The position numbers were made by a program, and so were the translations under genes. The notes beneath the pieces were generated by a model. The model ran no database searches. It was given only the letters and a program-made list of their open reading frames with translations, and had not been told where the DNA came from. 49,849 bases of DNA from Bacilli bacterium (lineage in GTDB: Bacteria > Bacillota_I > Bacilli_A > RF39 > UBA660): assembly GCA_016283075.1 (NCBI GenBank), contig JAEEMF010000001.1, positions 1-49,849 of the forward strand, given 5' to 3'. This document shows, piece after piece, positions 12,457-21,877 of the stretch; position 1 is the first letter of the stretch, and each line of letters opens with the position of its first letter.

Positions 12457-13236
12457 TTATCTTTTTAAGGAAACCATTTTATCAACTATATCTTTAACAT
12501 TGTTTTCATTAAATGGTTTTTGAAGTACATCTACTATAGGATAAGTAAATGCTCTCTCTACAGTATCTTTTGAGTCATCTCCTGTAATAATAGATACTGG
12601 AATAATATTATATAGATTATTTACATCTAAGTAATCTAATACTTCAAATCCATTAACATTTGGCATATTAAGATCAAGTAAGATACATGCAAGACTATCA
12701 AAAGTTGTTGTATTAAGTATATCTATAGCTTCTCTACCATCATGTGCTACTACTACATTATAAGTATTATTAAATATTTTAGAAATAAAGTTTCTAATAA
12801 TATCTGAATCATCTACAACTAAAATCGTTTTAGAATTAGGATTTAAAGTAACTTCTTCTTTAACATCTTGAATAGTTGTATTACCAATATATCTTTTTAA
12901 AGTACTAACCATTAAATTAACTTGGTTAAGCATTTCTTCATAAGAAGCATCTGCTCTAGATAAATTATTTTCTTTACCAGCTAGTTCTTCTTCATATGCT
13001 ACTTCAGCAAGTTTAGTAAATCCTAGATATCTTGCATCACTTTTAATTGAATGTGCATATATAGCAAAGTTTGCTAAATCATTATTACCCTTAGATTCTT
13101 TTAAATTATTTAATTTAGAATCAATTTCATTTAAGAAGTCAATTACAGTTTCATCATATGTTTCCATATCTCCTAAAACTTCTAGACTTCCATTAACATC
13201 AACCCCATTTTCAATTAAAATATTTACATCTTTCAT
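12457..13236 (-). CDS. Hpt-REC phosphotransfer/receiver protein
   Basis: Hpt motif YAHSIKSDARYLG; receiver ILVVDDSDIIRNFISKIF...LLDLNMPNVNGFEVL...LQKPF; no effector domain. Confidence 0.88.
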   Translation of the reverse strand: MKDVNILIENGVDVNGSLEVLGDMETYDETVIDFLNEIDSKLNNLKESKGNNDLANFAIYAHSIKSDARYLGFTKLAEVAYEEELAGKENNLSRADASYEEMLNQVNLMVSTLKRYIGNTTIQDVKEEVTLNPNSKTILVVDDSDIIRNFISKIFNNTYNVVVAHDGREAIDILNTTTFDSLACILLDLNMPNVNGFEVLDYLDVNNLYNIIPVSIITGDDSKDTVERAFTYPIVDVLQKPFNENNVKDIVDKMVSLKR

Positions 13237-13250
13237 ATTATCCCTCGTTT

Positions 13251-15104
13251 CTATTTTGTAAGATACTTATTTAATATTTTACTTAATTCATCTTTGTTGA
13301 TTGGTTTAGCAAGATAGTCATCAAATCCATCATCAATATATTTAGTCTTTATTCCATTAGAAGAATTTGCTGTAAGTACTATTACTTTAGTATTAAATCC
13401 TTCAATAGTTCTAAGTTTTCTTAGAGTATCAACACCACTTAATTCAGGCATCATATCATCCATAAATATTAAATCAAAAACTTCATGATTTTTTATTTTG
13501 CTTATACAATCACTACCACTTGTAACACTATCTGTTAAACAGTTAAATGTCTTAAGTAGTCTTTCTACAACCTTTATATTTAAAGGATTATCATCTACAA
13601 TAAGTATTCTTTTACCAGTAAAATCAGTAAGTGCTGGAATATCTTTTTCATCTTTAATAATAGCATTAGATATTTTTTGATTTATTACTACTGTAAATTT
13701 AGAACCCTTTCCATAGACACTTTGTACCATTACAGTACCATGCATCATTTGAACTAGTCTTTTTGTAATAGCAAGACCAAGTCCTGCTCCTTCAACTTTT
13801 AAAGCTTTGGTTGTTTCAAGCTTTTCAAATTTTTTGAAGATTTTTTCTAAGTCTTCTTCTTTTATACCAATACCGGTATCTTCAGAAGATATAGTAAGCA
13901 CGCACTCACCATCAACAATCTTACTATCTACAGAAAATATTACTTTTCCGTGTTCAGTAAACTTAATACTATTAGATAGTAATTGATTCATGATTTGAGT
14001 AACTTGAAGAGGATCACCAAATAATACTTTTGGTAAATTAGGGCTAATGTCAAATATTACTTCAACATCTTTATTTCTAGCCCTTATTTTCATCTTCTGC
14101 TTTACTTCTTTTATTATATCATTAAGTGAGTAATCTGTCTCGTATAATTCAAATTTACCTGCTTCCATCTTAGAAATATCAAGTATTCCATTTACTATAT
14201 CCATAAGTACATATGAAGAATATTCTATTTCTTCTATACTTTCTTTAGTAGCATCATCACTTTTCTTTTCACTAAGAAGCTGAGAAAAACCAAGTATTGC
14301 ATTTAAAGGAGTACGTATTTCATGACTCATATTTGATAAGAAATCATCTTTAGCACTCGCTGCAGTTTCCGTTTGCTTTTTAGTAAACTCAAGTTCATTT
14401 ATAAGTTCAATATTTGGATTATCCAAAGTAAAATATAAAAGGAACAGAGTAAATGATATAGCAAAAGTATTAATTATTACCCCTGGAAATACTGTTTCTA
14501 AGACAAAACATATAAATGTTAAGAATATATATATAACATAAGTGATTAACTTATTAAAATCAATTTCATATAAATGTCTAGATAACTTTATAATCCATAT
14601 AATTGCATATATTATATTCATAAAGAATACAAATACCATTACTGGTCCTCTAAAGAAATATCTAGTATTATCTATATAAAAATGAATTGGCAATATCATT
14701 ATAATAATTGACTGAATAATAGTTATAGCAAATCCAAATATAATAATTCCTCTATTATATCTAAGACCTAAATTACAATATTCTTTTTTAATACCTTTAG
14801 TAGATACATGTAAGAAATATGTAAGGCATACTACATAAAATAACTGTAAGCATAAATAACTCTTAGTAAATAACACTTTACTTATGTTTTCACCAGGATA
14901 CTTATGCATAAAGTATACACTTATTATATTAATGATAATGGATCCTATAACAGATATTATTAATATAGAATAAATGGCGTTTTCTTCTGTTTTTAGTTTA
15001 CTCTTTTTATAAAAAACATAAGATATTATTAATATAAATATTAAACATATTATTGGAATATGTATAACATTAAGATAATCCAAATATTTTTCCATAGTAT
15101 ACAT
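13251..15104 (-). CDS. Hybrid sensor histidine kinase (multi-TM sensor, HisKA-HATPase-REC)
   Basis: H box [23 protein letters not shown], HATPase DTGIGI / GAGLGLAI, REC DLIFMDDMMPELSG. Confidence 0.93.
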   Translation of the reverse strand: MYTMEKYLDYLNVIHIPIICLIFILIISYVFYKKSKLKTEENAIYSILIISVIGSIIINIISVYFMHKYPGENISKVLFTKSYLCLQLFYVVCLTYFLHVSTKGIKKEYCNLGLRYNRGIIIFGFAITIIQSIIIMILPIHFYIDNTRYFFRGPVMVFVFFMNIIYAIIWIIKLSRHLYEIDFNKLITYVIYIFLTFICFVLETVFPGVIINTFAISFTLFLLYFTLDNPNIELINELEFTKKQTETAASAKDDFLSNMSHEIRTPLNAILGFSQLLSEKKSDDATKESIEEIEYSSYVLMDIVNGILDISKMEAGKFELYETDYSLNDIIKEVKQKMKIRARNKDVEVIFDISPNLPKVLFGDPLQVTQIMNQLLSNSIKFTEHGKVIFSVDSKIVDGECVLTISSEDTGIGIKEEDLEKIFKKFEKLETTKALKVEGAGLGLAITKRLVQMMHGTVMVQSVYGKGSKFTVVINQKISNAIIKDEKDIPALTDFTGKRILIVDDNPLNIKVVERLLKTFNCLTDSVTSGSDCISKIKNHEVFDLIFMDDMMPELSGVDTLRKLRTIEGFNTKVIVLTANSSNGIKTKYIDDGFDDYLAKPINKDELSKILNKYLTK

Positions 15105-15105
15105 C

Positions 15106-16986
15106 CTACCTTAAAAATTTAATAAGTATTTCATCTAATTCTTCTACATTAATAGGTTTAGCTAAATACTCATCAAATCCTTGCTCTAAATATTTTTCTC
15201 TAATACCAGTAATAACATTTGCCGTAAGCATCACTACTGGAATATTAAATCCATTTATTTTCTTAAGTTTTTTAAGAGTTTCTGTACCAGATAAACTAGG
15301 CATAACATCATCCATAAAGATTAAATCAGTCTTATTACCAAAAATAGCATATTTAATAGCCTCTTCACCAGAACGAAGTGAAGTAACATTTATTCCATAT
15401 TTAGAAAGAAATTTAGTAATAACTTTAATACTAGTAACATTATCGTCTACTACAAGAACATTCTTACCTTTAAATAAGTTTAAAGAAGATACCTTTATTT
15501 CTTCTTTAACAGGTTTTATAACATTAGTATTAATACCTTGAATTAGTTCAACAGTAAACGTAGAACCCTTACCATATTCACTTGTAACAGATATCTTACC
15601 ATTCATAAGATCAACAAGCCTTTTAGTAAGTGCTAAACCTAGCCCAGTACCTTCAATTTGCATTTGTCTTTCTACACCAAGTCTATCAAATTTAGTAAAT
15701 AATCTATTTAAATCTTCTTTCTTTATACCAATACCTGTATCTTCTACTGAAATAATAAGAGTGCAGTATTTATCAGATAATTTGGCATTAATTTTAAAAT
15801 CTACATACCCTTCTTTAGTATATTTAATAGCATTAGTAAGTATATTAAGTACTACTTGTTTAACATGAATAAAGTCACCTATTAAATATTCAGGAATATA
15901 TGGATCAGCCCATGATCTAAATTCTATATTTTTACCATTTATTCTTGATTTACCAAGTAAACATAACTCATCAAATAATTTCTTAAATCTATATGAATTA
16001 GTCTTTATTTCAAGAATATTTGACTCTATTTTAGATATATCAAGAATACCATTTATAGTATCCAGTAAACTATTAGATGCAACGAGTATTGAGTTAACTC
16101 CATCATTAATTTCTGGATCCTTATTATTTTCTTTAAGTATTTCGGAAAAGCCCACTATAGAATTTAAAGGAGTACGTATTTCATGACTCATACTAAGAAG
16201 GAAATTAGTTTTACCTTCATTAACATCTTCAGCTTTCCTCTTAGCTTCTGTAAGTTGATTTATTATTTCATAATCAGGATTTTGTACAGTAAAGTACATT
16301 ATAACAAGTGTTATAGTAAGCATTATAGTAGCAGTAATATTCTTAATAATAAATACTTGTAAGATAGTATAAATATTAAAACCAAGTATTATAGTAAATA
16401 TTACATGCTTAGTAGGACTACTAACATACTTCCACCTTAGACATAATAAAAAAACTAGTACAATAATTCTAATTAGAAATGCCCCATAAATAAAGATCTT
16501 TATTGAAGAAAGACCAAATAATACAGCATTATTATAAGGAAGCATTAAAATAACACATAATTCTATAACAGATATTGAATAAGATAAAGCAGTAAAGTTT
16601 TTTATCGAATTATCTCTTTTTCTCTCATTACGTTTTGCATAATCAGCATCAAGAGACTTTAAAAATATTTTCGTTTTATGATAATCCGAATTAATTAGTA
16701 TTATTGAATACATAAGAATAATATTAATATTTAGTATTAATGCATAATAATATATAGCTTTTGTAATATATGATATATAAGAATTAGAAGTAAAAATTGC
16801 CAGTGAAAGAGAAGAAATAATATCTAAACAAATACATATAAAAACCATAAATAGTAAAAATGAATATTTCTTACTTTCAACATTGTTAATACGTTTTTTA
16901 GAGAAGTATGCAATAATCATTGCAATATTAAAAAGAAGCGCAACAATTTGTGTATCTATTTGGTCAAGTATTGTAACTAATTCCAT
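15106..16986 (-). CDS. Hybrid sensor histidine kinase (multi-TM sensor, HisKA-HATPase-REC)
   Basis: [29 protein letters not shown] / GTGLGLAL, REC DLIFMDDVMPSLSG. Confidence 0.93.
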   Translation of the reverse strand: MELVTILDQIDTQIVALLFNIAMIIAYFSKKRINNVESKKYSFLLFMVFICICLDIISSLSLAIFTSNSYISYITKAIYYYALILNINIILMYSIILINSDYHKTKIFLKSLDADYAKRNERKRDNSIKNFTALSYSISVIELCVILMLPYNNAVLFGLSSIKIFIYGAFLIRIIVLVFLLCLRWKYVSSPTKHVIFTIILGFNIYTILQVFIIKNITATIMLTITLVIMYFTVQNPDYEIINQLTEAKRKAEDVNEGKTNFLLSMSHEIRTPLNSIVGFSEILKENNKDPEINDGVNSILVASNSLLDTINGILDISKIESNILEIKTNSYRFKKLFDELCLLGKSRINGKNIEFRSWADPYIPEYLIGDFIHVKQVVLNILTNAIKYTKEGYVDFKINAKLSDKYCTLIISVEDTGIGIKKEDLNRLFTKFDRLGVERQMQIEGTGLGLALTKRLVDLMNGKISVTSEYGKGSTFTVELIQGINTNVIKPVKEEIKVSSLNLFKGKNVLVVDDNVTSIKVITKFLSKYGINVTSLRSGEEAIKYAIFGNKTDLIFMDDVMPSLSGTETLKKLKKINGFNIPVVMLTANVITGIREKYLEQGFDEYLAKPINVEELDEILIKFLR

Positions 16987-17040: not shown

Positions 17041-17061
17041 AAACAGATAAAAATCTGTTTT
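17041..17061 (-). terminator. Terminator inside the phosphorelay cluster
   Basis: AAACAGAT-N4-ATCTGTTT followed by a minus-strand T tract. Confidence 0.75.
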
Positions 17062-17839
17062 ATAAGTTTGAATTAATAGATATCATCTTTTCAATTACAA
17101 GTCTAATATCTCTTTCATTAAATGGTTTTTGAAGAACACCTACTATTGGATAATTAAATGCTCTAGTAGTAGTTTCCTTAGAATCATCACCAGTAATGAT
17201 AGCAACTGGTATTTTAACAAATAAATTATTATTTTTTAAGTAATCTAATACTTCAAACCCATTTACATTAGGCATATTTAAATCTAAAAGCATACCAATA
17301 ATATTACCATATGAATTAGTACCAATTATATCAAGTGCTTCTTTACCATCATGAGCAACTAATACTAAGTAATTATTATCGAATATCTTTTGAATAAATG
17401 TTCTAATTACATCAGAATCATCTACAACTAAGATAGTTTTATCTTTTACAGCAGGAGCTGGTGCTACAGTAGTAGTAATAGCTTCTCCCATATATGTTTT
17501 TAAAACATTTATAATTCTATTAGCCTCACCAACAAGTGCATCATAATTTTGATATACATAATTTATATCATTAGCTTTACTTTGCATTTCATGGTTATAA
17601 GCAAGTTCAGCAAGTTTAGTAAGTCCTAAATATTTAGCATCACTTTTTAAAGAGTGAACAAGTATTGCATAATTAGGCATATCACCTGCTACTTTATATT
17701 TTTCGATATCAGCAAGTTTAGTAGTAACACCTGCTAAGAAATCTGTAACAGTTTCATCATATGTAGCCATATCACCAAATAGTTCTAGACTACTAGCAAC
17801 ATCTACTCCATTTGAAGTTAATATATTTGAATCTCTCAT
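17060..17839 (-). CDS. Hpt-REC phosphotransfer/receiver protein (paralogue of 12457-13236)
   Basis: Hpt motif LVHSLKSDAKYLG; receiver ILVVDDSDVIRTFIQKIF...LLDLNMPNVNGFEVL. Confidence 0.88.
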   Translation of the reverse strand: MRDSNILTSNGVDVASSLELFGDMATYDETVTDFLAGVTTKLADIEKYKVAGDMPNYAILVHSLKSDAKYLGLTKLAELAYNHEMQSKANDINYVYQNYDALVGEANRIINVLKTYMGEAITTTVAPAPAVKDKTILVVDDSDVIRTFIQKIFDNNYLVLVAHDGKEALDIIGTNSYGNIIGMLLDLNMPNVNGFEVLDYLKNNNLFVKIPVAIITGDDSKETTTRAFNYPIVGVLQKPFNERDIRLVIEKMISINSNL

Positions 17840-17878: not shown

Positions 17879-19561
17879 TTAATTATCTAAGAATTTAGTC
17901 ATTATTATACTTAATTCCTCTTTTTTAAGAGGCTTAGCTAAATAATCATTAAATCCTAAATTAATATATTTATCTCTCATACCAGTAATAGCATTTGCTG
18001 TTAAAGCAATAGTTGGTATATTAAATTCTGGTAACTCTTGAAGTTTTTTAAGAGTTTCAACACCACTCATCTTAGGCATTAAATCGTCCATAAAGATTAA
18101 ATCAAAGTGTTCACCACTAGATATCTTATTAATTGCTTCTTGACCACTTTGAACAGCTTCAGTGTCAATTTTATACTCTCTAAGAAGTCTTTGAGCAACC
18201 TTAATATTAACCATATTATCATCAACAATAAGAAGTTTCTTACCAGAGCAATCAATTACTTTAGAAGATTTTTCATCTTTACCAAGTACTTCTTCAACAG
18301 GAACATCTTTAGCAATAGCTTGATCTATAGCAATAGTAAATTTAGAGCCTTCTCCGTAGATACTTTGTACTACAATGGAACCATTCATTAAATCAACTAA
18401 CTTCTTAGTAATAGCAAGACCAAGTCCAGTACCTTCAATAGTAATTTCTTTTTCTACACCAAGTCTATCAAATTTACTAAATAATCTATTAATATTAGCT
18501 TCTTTAATACCAATACCAGAGTCTTCTACAGATATAATTAATCTACACATATCTCCTTGAATAATAGAACTAATTCTAAAATCAATATATCCTTCTTTAG
18601 TATACTTAATAGCATTAGTAAGTATATTAAGAATAACTTGTTTAATACGAGAGTGATCTCCATATAATACAGGAGGTATCGTAGGATCTATATTATATCT
18701 AAAGTCGACTGAACTTTCTCCTATACGAGCCTTAGATAAAGTAACAAGTTCATTAAATAATTTATGGAAACTATAATTACTATCAATAATATCTAATTTA
18801 TTAGCTTCAATCTTAGAAATATCAAGAATACCATTAACTATTTCAAGAAGTGTATTAGAAGCAGAAATAATATCTTCTACTTCATCTTTAGCACTTGCAG
18901 GAATATCTTCTTCCTCTAAAGCCTGTGAGAAACCAACAATAGCATTTAAAGGAGTACGTATTTCATGACTCATACTAGCTAAAAACTCGCTCTTAGCATT
19001 GTTAGCATCATCAGCTTGTTTCTTAGCTACTTCAAGTTGCTCTACCATCTTAACATCAGGATTTTCAATAGTATGAAACATTATAAAAACCGTTAAGAAA
19101 TGAACAGCAGTCGAAATAGTAAAATCCGGATTATATTTTTGAATAAAAGTTATAATTAACATTAAAAGAACTAATAACAACATAGGGAAAAATTTTGAAA
19201 ATTTATTAGCTTTCCTATTTGAAAGAAAAACTATAAAAAATATAACAAAAAGGATTGAAGAATATATATAAATAAAATCAACGCAAGTACCCGAAGCATA
19301 TCCTTTATGTTGTTCAAAAGGCAACACTAAAATTAGTATTGTTGAAATAAGATATATTATCCACGAAATAAACTTAAAGTTTTTTGAAAATGACTTATCA
19401 TGGAAACCCACTTTATATATTTCAAATTCGTAGAAAAGAATGATAGATAAAAATGTAATAATATAAACGAAATATAGTTTAATTATTACAGTAGTCAGTG
19501 CTGTATTTAAATACATATTACTAAGATAAATACTAAGCATTTCTAAAATAATACCAATCAT
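17879..19561 (-). CDS. Hybrid sensor histidine kinase; N-terminus probably lies upstream (to 19686) in the other frame
   Basis: [29 protein letters not shown] / [25 protein letters not shown]. The track start has no Shine-Dalgarno; see the frameshift finding. Confidence 0.9.
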
Positions 19562-19609
19562 GTTGGTAATTATAAGTAACTTATAAATAATAGTTTCCCC
19601 AGAAACAAT

Positions 19610-19629
19610 GCTTTTTTTGTAAAAAAAGC
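19610..19629 (-). other. Putative -1 frameshift or indel site (T7-AC-A7)
   Basis: Minus strand GCTTTTTTTACAAAAAAAGC; the A AAA AAA heptamer lies in the zero frame of the upstream start at 19686. Confidence 0.6.
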
Positions 19630-19751
19630 AATAATCAAAGACAAACTAAGAATAAAACAAAGACCTAACATTAATAAATATTCCATAAAGCCACCACCTG
19701 TATTTTATATATCCTACTTCATTATATAACACATTTAGAATTAAAAGCAAT

Positions 19752-19777
19752 AAAAAAGAGTCATTAGACTCTTTTTT
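19752..19777 (-). terminator. Rho-independent terminator
   Basis: Perfect 11-bp AAAAAAGAGTC-ATTA-GACTCTTTTTT. Confidence 0.85.
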
Positions 19778-19781
19778 GAAA

Positions 19782-21737
19782 TTAACTTATTTTAAAAGTT
19801 TTAACTTTCTCAGTTTTTTTAACATTAAAATCAGCTATACTATCAATTGATATAAGCTTATCCTTATTGTCCTCTTCTCTTAAAGCCCTAATGCTTCTCT
19901 TACCACTAGGGTCAACAGGAAAGCCTTCAATAAAGCTATGTATTCTAAATGAAATTCTAGGAATGATTTCAACTGATATTTCATTATAAATTCTTAATTT
20001 ACATGAAGCTAAAATATATTCCATACTTTTCTTAGAGTCTGGTTGTTTTTCGATATGACAAACATAACTATTATCATCATTTTTAATTACTGTACAAGAT
20101 AAAATGTTCTTAGTATCTTTTGAAATTGATTCTTCAATCTTAAATGTTGGAAACATTTCTCCATTTGATAAAGTTACATAATCATTAATTCTTCCCTTAA
20201 TTTTTAAACTTCTATAATATGGATCAGCAATATATCCTAACGCACCCATTTTCATCCATTTTTTTCCATATTTATCTGTTACAAATACATCTTCGTTTAA
20301 TGAATCATCTAAATATCCACTCATGTTAGCTGGCGAGTCAACAACTAGAATACCAGGTTCATTTACATCGCAATAGCTACCATCTGGTTTTAGAACATTA
20401 TACTCAGCAAGTTTAACAGGAAGTAAACCTAAAGAATAATTTTTTCCACGAATTTTTACCTTATTATTTTGAAGTGCGTGAAATATAGTAAAGAATAATC
20501 CGCCTGTCTCGCAAGTTCCACCGCCTAGTGAAAAGGTAACTGGTGATAATGGGAAAGGTAATTTACCTGTTCCAAAAGCATGTCTTCTAGCAATTTTATT
20601 TAAAAACTTTTCTTCACCAGCAGAACATCCTTCGCCAACCAGATCAGGCAACATTAAAGATGGAAATTTTACATGTTTGTATTCCTTGCTTAAAAGTTTC
20701 TTTCCTAAATCAATCCATGTACCAGCTGTTTCTTGACAATAATTAGGTTTGTTAATTAATAATGATGTCATAAAAAATTCTTTATCCCTAAATGGCTCAG
20801 CAGCATAAGTACAATTGCAAAATAATGTATCTGTTACATTACTTAAATTAGTATGAGAGTAAACAGGAATACCAAACTGAGTAACCAAGTTCTTCATTTC
20901 TGGCATTTTAGAAACATCAGATGACTTAAATCTAGAAACTGTCACATACACTCTATTCGAATGCTTAACAGCCTTTGGACGATTCTTATTTGTAGTACCG
21001 CTTGTATAAGAAATAGTAGCGATATCATCTAATGACTGTTCTTCAATAACATTTTTATCATATGCTTTTCCTAAATCAATAAATTCATCTTGAGAAAGAA
21101 TCTTTTTATAAGAGAATGATTTATATAAATTAATACGGCTTCCAAAATCATGATTTTTTTCAAATGATTGAAATGGATTATATGGTTTACCATTTTTTTT
21201 CATCAATGAATCACTTAATGAAGGTATAATAATATTTTTAATATTACTTTTTTCAAGTGTTGAAGATATTTTAGAATAGTTATCCTCAGAAACAAACATA
21301 GTTTTACAACCTGATTCGTTTATTGTAGAAAGAAGAAAATCTTCATCAAAATATGAAGGCATAAAGTGTGATGTTACACCTATCATATTACATGCAATAA
21401 AAATATATAGGTATTCAGGTGTATTTGAAACACAGATTGGAAGAGTATCACCTTTTTTTAATCCTAATTGTTTCAAAGATTTAGCATACTCAAATGCTTT
21501 TTTATACATTTCTTTATATGTAATTTTATTACCTCTATATAATATTGCAGGTTTATCTAAATAACCACTTTTTTTATTCCTTTCATACATATAAATAGAC
21601 CAAGCAGTATTATGATTAAATTCAATATCTTCTAAAACTTCTCGCGCTTTTTTGTCTAAACGATTGCTATAAATATGATTATTTGGTTTCATACTTAAAC
21701 CTTGTATTTCTTTTTCAAATTGTTCTAGAATTTCCAT
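19782..21737 (-). CDS. AMP-binding adenylate-forming enzyme (acyl-CoA synthetase-like)
   Basis: ISYTSGTTNKNRPKAVKHSN, A8-like MGALGYIADPYYRSLKIKGRINDYVTLSNGEMFP, C-terminal VDPSGKRSIRAL. Start moved to ATG at 21737 (MEILEQ), which has a GGGGGG SD. Confidence 0.85.
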   Translation of the reverse strand: MEILEQFEKEIQGLSMKPNNHIYSNRLDKKAREVLEDIEFNHNTAWSIYMYERNKKSGYLDKPAILYRGNKITYKEMYKKAFEYAKSLKQLGLKKGDTLPICVSNTPEYLYIFIACNMIGVTSHFMPSYFDEDFLLSTINESGCKTMFVSEDNYSKISSTLEKSNIKNIIIPSLSDSLMKKNGKPYNPFQSFEKNHDFGSRINLYKSFSYKKILSQDEFIDLGKAYDKNVIEEQSLDDIATISYTSGTTNKNRPKAVKHSNRVYVTVSRFKSSDVSKMPEMKNLVTQFGIPVYSHTNLSNVTDTLFCNCTYAAEPFRDKEFFMTSLLINKPNYCQETAGTWIDLGKKLLSKEYKHVKFPSLMLPDLVGEGCSAGEEKFLNKIARRHAFGTGKLPFPLSPVTFSLGGGTCETGGLFFTIFHALQNNKVKIRGKNYSLGLLPVKLAEYNVLKPDGSYCDVNEPGILVVDSPANMSGYLDDSLNEDVFVTDKYGKKWMKMGALGYIADPYYRSLKIKGRINDYVTLSNGEMFPTFKIEESISKDTKNILSCTVIKNDDNSYVCHIEKQPDSKKSMEYILASCKLRIYNEISVEIIPRISFRIHSFIEGFPVDPSGKRSIRALREEDNKDKLISIDSIADFNVKKTEKVKTFKIS

Positions 21738-21877
21738 AAAATCCCCCCTAGCATCAAGCCATAACCCCTTGACTTGCAAGTTATTATAGCATATTTTTCT
21801 ACTTTGTCAATTTTACACAAAGTGGCTTAAAAACTAGAAAAAAGAGCCTTTTATAGAAAAAGCTCTCTTTAATGTAA

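Follow-up and report, generated by a model that had tools for sequence, protein, structure and literature searches.

A one-base frame break at adjoining T7 and A7 runs in a putative seven-helix hybrid histidine kinase gene of a Bacilli bacterium

In Bordetella pertussis, a difference of one base in a short coding homopolymer (C6 or C7) shifts the frame of the sensor kinase gene bvgS, and both lengths as well as mixed populations are documented (PMC1891110). In the two-component gene flgR of Campylobacter jejuni, which encodes a response regulator, one-base changes in A or T tracts act as a switch and reversion was observed (PMC3930126). Poly-A/T frameshifts, possibly corrected by transcriptional slippage, are found in otherwise preserved genes of the small AT-rich genomes of Blochmannia and Buchnera, where many coding tracts reach at least nine bases and some frameshifts are shared between species (PMC3017870). 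Programmed -1 frameshifting of the dnaX and IS type relies on an in-phase heptamer, A_AAA_AAG (PMC4066793). Evidence of selection against A/T runs prone to slippage comes mostly from lengths of nine and above (PMC1088944). Singleton frameshifts have been read as an indel or an error, and those validated by BLAST are expected to be mainly sequencing errors (PMC3711429).

We describe here a kinase gene, K1, located in a window of 49,849 nucleotides (the whole stretch of DNA that was analysed). Like bvgS, it has a sensor kinase frame shifted by one base at a short coding homopolymer, but it is known from one draft genome and the run is of A or T. It shares with flgR the one-base change in an A or T tract of a two-component gene, whereas K1 is known from a single allele. 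As in Blochmannia and Buchnera, the genome is small and AT-rich and the gene is otherwise preserved; however, K1 has a run of 7, the coding runs sampled all stay below 9, and the frameshift is confined to this genome. Finally, an in-phase A_AAA_AAA heptamer recalls the dnaX and IS type, but the site is not conserved, the stimulator is unconvincing and there is no known need for two products. The break in K1 looks more like one recent slip or sequencing error than like a built-in switch.

The divided reading frame

The features of the locus are as follows.
19752 to 19777, minus strand: intrinsic terminator between an AMP-binding gene and K1 (1 found versus 0.0 expected in shuffles)
19570 to 19686, minus strand: upstream 0-frame open reading frame (ORF) of 38 aa, with Shine-Dalgarno (SD) sequence, ATG, transmembrane (TM) helix and 13 out-of-frame codons to TAA
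19621 to 19627, minus strand: reading-strand T7 (GCT TTT TTT), in slip phase; candidate site of the lost base
19612 to 19618, minus strand: reading-strand A7 (ACA AAA AAA G; T7 on the plus strand), in slip phase; candidate site of the lost base
19610 to 19629, minus strand: 9-bp inverted repeat GCTTTTTTT-AC-AAAAAAAGC, weak as RNA (-4.6 kcal/mol)
19593 to 19606, minus strand: 5-bp hairpin GUUUC-UGGG-GAAAC, 5 nt after the A7 (-1.8 kcal/mol), not taken to stimulate frameshifting
17879 to 19561, minus strand: K1 kinase fragment that starts at an internal ATG lacking an SD and spans 560 aa, with TM2 to TM7, HisKA, HATPase_c and REC, motifs intact
17060 to 17839, minus strand: HR1, Hpt-like and receiver protein, paired with K1 and nearest to the lone copy of the sister genomes; Hpt just below the Pfam cut-off
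15106 to 16986, minus strand: K2, fast-evolving paralogous hybrid kinase, intact (domains, tree)
13251 to 15104, minus strand: K3, fast-evolving paralogous hybrid kinase, intact (domains, tree)
12457 to 13236, minus strand: HR2, second Hpt and receiver protein (domains)

As an earlier note on this DNA had observed, the kinase ORF opens at an ATG (19561) that lacks an SD, and a second ATG at 19686, preceded by CAGGTGGTGGCTTTATG (SD AGGTGG), opens a short frame of 38 codons, which encodes a strong TM helix and ends at a TAA (19572-19570), 8 nt before ATG 19561. The kinase frame is open over 588 aa, its preceding stop lying just upstream, and the ORF from 19561 is devoid of the first TM helix, which is encoded from the 19686 ATG at an offset of one base. 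The first 25 residues of intact orthologues are homologous to this upstream ORF.

The two frames meet at GC-T7-AC-A7-GC (19627-19612, reading strand). Stepping back one base at T7-AC-A7 yields a joined protein of 602 aa that aligned without gaps in the join region with 21 family homologues and both paralogues, and whose predicted TM peak covers residues 4-22. This confirms the alignment with K2 and K3 and the upstream position of the true first helix, both claimed earlier. The -1 join proposed at the A7 holds as a one-base join, but not necessarily for its site: GCT TTT TTT ACA AAA AAA offers two heptamers in phase for slipping, T_TTT_TTT and A_AAA_AAA, so that the missing base may be in either run, and the product reads AFFTKKS or AFFYKKS depending on the run used. 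Moreover, the A7 had been placed at 19621-19627, which is the reading-strand T7.

The kinase and its homologues

Judging from its sequence, K1 appears to encode a true 7TM hybrid histidine kinase (sensor-HisKA-HATPase-REC). The HisKA, HATPase_c and receiver domains exceed the Pfam cut-offs, and the H, N, G1, F and G2 boxes are all present, as are the receiver D and K. In a tree of 55 rows, K1 clusters with the sole kinases of the two sister genomes (support 100/97), which makes the broken copy the conserved one. Its branch length is 0.79 versus 0.69 and 0.66 for the sisters, while K2 (2.4) and K3 (2.1) are long-branched and unplaced. K1 is the slow-evolving orthologue of its genus, with no acceleration. 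No further stop was found in its 560 codons; given that 4.6% of all single-base changes in K1 create a stop, unconstrained drift would be limited to roughly 0.04 changes per site, by an arithmetic set at three expected stops. Neither the tree branch nor the stop count revealed relaxed constraint or added lesions, and K1 carries one lesion while its orthologues are intact.

The sensor of an orthologue (L031:1839-2588) was predicted with confidence (mean pLDDT 89, pTM 0.83) to be a bundle of seven helices in which a beta hairpin lies between helices 4 and 5. No Pfam family passes its cut-off on this domain, and the best PDB matches of the model in Foldseek are eukaryotic 7TM receptors (GPCRs), which are weak (E 0.003 and above, TM 0.4-0.6). 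All seven N-terminal helices are found in one polypeptide in joined K1 and in the orthologue model, but not in the window as read, where TM1 is in the other frame. Without TM1, the modelled bundle would be one helix short, with the N-terminus inside TM2, and K1 would probably lose its function or alter its output.

Homologues were searched in 60 related genomes, in genomes retrieved by species name (uncultured Bacilli/Tenericutes MAGs, then Lachnospiraceae) and in 291 genomes of the same family. The inspected homologues carry the helix (...YFSKKRINxxENKIY...) in the kinase frame and start about 45 codons before the position matching the internal ATG at 19561. A profile scan of 111 records found the N-terminal segment and the kinase in one ORF in 69 ORFs, two of which are K1 itself (in the window and in L001), matched via its -1-frame remnant. 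The earlier note had considered that orthologues might lack the upstream segment; they carry it in frame. The genus is represented by two other genomes only, with one genome per species, and the nearest orthologues of K1 share 56-59% protein identity. A contig scan for a same-species genome recovered only relatives, with at most 59% identity in the best segments.

The frame split of K1 is a singleton among the homologues inspected. One other N-terminal interruption only was found, in G033, among about 59 distinct sites and in the 291-genome family search. At about 1330-1503 of this locus (L015, G033:C17), the TM1 segment is followed by an in-frame TAA and immediately afterwards by an ATG, which represents a second, independent interruption. 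Four further candidates with a stop within the match (G303, G100, G083 and G020) proved to have continuous N-termini on checking.

Origin of the frame break

At odds slightly better than even (about 0.53), we favour a very recent loss of one base from K1 by replication slippage in the T7/A7 pair. Such runs are of a type prone to slippage deletions. The pair would encode the end of TM1 and the next lysines (AFF-T-KK-S), where slippage would have removed one base, and translation from the proper start at 19686 would now stop after 38 codons. What remains could be at most a trace of full-length protein made through unstimulated slippage or, if ribosomes restart at the ATG 8 nt past the stop, a kinase without TM1. 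We infer that the deletion is carried by the cells and is no artefact of assembly, that it arose recently and that the sensor suffers from it. A recent indel is also the best supported of the four explanations that the earlier note had listed.

The 9-bp palindrome noticed earlier around the tract does exist, and nowhere else in the window are a T7 and an A7 separated by a spacer of 0-4. When spacers of up to 6 are allowed, 510 kb of the source genome yield five such pairs. Single runs are far from rare: 460 kb of its coding sequence contain 239 A/T runs of length 7 and 36 of length 8 (275 in total). None of at least nine was found in these 460 kb, and non-coding DNA contains seven runs of nine in 51 kb. 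That coding runs stop short of nine is in line with the length from which selection shows in many genomes (PMC1088944). Since intact genes of this genome often contain runs of 7-8, slippage is not frequent, which counts against a recent deletion. A further point against it is that a one-base consensus error would give an identical picture. Similarly, the lack of decay in K1 would be expected no less from an error, or from a frame that is corrected or reversible, than from a recent mutation.

Such an assembly or consensus error, the true genome having one more base in the T7 or the A7 and an intact gene, is a serious alternative, albeit a rather doubtful one. The break is a homopolymer singleton in a draft that is 77.7% complete and split in 85 contigs, the gene is otherwise well preserved and unaccelerated, and singletons of this kind are mainly taken as sequencing errors (PMC3711429). 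Nevertheless, comparison with 193 sister proteins with a good match, covering 185 kb of the source genome, disclosed no second frameshift despite the abundance of coding runs of 7-8 A/T. The same comparison detected a simulated one-base loss in 152 of 193 cases (79%), which bounds the frameshift rate at about 2 per 100 kb (upper 95% limit). The scan is weak near gene ends (4/33 losses detected within 20 residues of the match end, 22/27 at 20-40); it did not flag K1 itself, and K1-like splits elsewhere could escape. A generally indel-rich assembly was ruled unlikely on these grounds, and a single error may still be compatible with the clean scan.

Reversible phase variation, whereby length slippage in the T7/A7 would make the sensor kinase alternate between off and on within the population, is unlikely. 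It has short-tract precedents in two-component genes, namely the C6/C7 of bvgS (PMC1891110) and the A/T tracts of C. jejuni flgR (PMC3930126); the T run beside the A run doubles the targets, and K1 is a sensory regulator that is intact outside the tract. However, a second allele was not seen in the one draft genome, and comparison of tract length across orthologues, as suggested earlier, showed that the long A tract is not conserved, the sister orthologues (G001 and G002) having only A3-A4 at the site. Runs of such length are ordinary in the source genome, none reaching nine in the coding sample, and the A/T threshold was set above 7 in the bvgS study since shorter repeats are relatively stable (PMC1891110). 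That the T7 and A7 at the end of TM1 form a slippage switch between a full-length and a TM1-less 7TM sensor kinase, in an uncultured gut-type Bacillota lineage, is a more specific proposal and an improbable one. If reads showed both lengths, the locus would amount to an on/off switch of the BvgS kind in an uncultured lineage without a documented case in the literature examined; otherwise this is a matter of annotation, and the entry for K1 should mark the frameshift and place the start at 19686.

The earlier note had also suggested programmed -1 ribosomal frameshifting. This event (at A_AAA_AAA or U_UUU_UUU), or transcriptional slippage, could yield the full protein, since each of the two heptamers is in phase for slipping, there is a 5-bp hairpin 5 nt after the A7, and homopolymer frameshifts are known to be rescued by slippage in AT-rich endosymbionts (PMC3017870). 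We nonetheless hold such recoding to be hardly credible, as the split is a singleton and the site is conserved in none of the inspected homologues. Indeed, an A7, A8 or A9 occupies the matching KK site in 13 of 59 distinct homologue sequences (e.g., TCT AAA AAA AGA) with the frame unbroken, so that the 'slippery' motif follows from FF-x-KK and AT-rich codons. In an AT-rich genome, an A_AAA_AAA heptamer may coincide with a frame break without signalling recoding, and here it stems from the conserved FFxKK. Both hairpins are weak, and the 100-nt fold at the break is unremarkable (z -1.5); the 40- and 55-nt folds (z -2.6 and -2.1) mostly reflect the T7/A7 palindrome. No SD-like element was found before the slip site at the K1 locus. 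In E. coli, heptamers without stimulator reach at most about 10 times a background of 0.055% (PMC4066793), and selection against slippage-prone A/T runs shows mostly at lengths of nine and above (PMC1088944).

Least probable is a true kinase start at 19561, with the upstream ORF as a separate small membrane peptide coupled by reinitiation: the TAA is only 8 nt before this ATG and G033 likewise has a stop then an immediate ATG, but the SD is absent, TM1 is in a single frame in homologues, 21% of random one-base losses produce a main-frame ATG so near a new stop, and the protein would begin inside TM2 and disrupt the predicted 7TM bundle.

Neighbouring genes

The gene order in the window is K1-HR1-K2-K3-HR2-DUF5698, whereas in the sister genomes the DUF5698 gene is accompanied by only one kinase and one Hpt-receiver protein. 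Among the three genomes of the genus that were compared, the extra K2 and K3 and the second Hpt-receiver gene (12457-16986) are found only in the source genome. Directly upstream of K1, beyond the terminator, lies an AMP-binding (acyl-CoA-ligase-like) gene (19782-21779). An AMP-binding gene also directly precedes the kinase in 20 of the 84 homologue loci whose upstream sequence spans 1 kb or more, and the kinase is often followed by the Hpt-receiver gene. The ligase, the 7TM kinase and the Hpt-receiver protein may form a signal-making and signal-sensing set.
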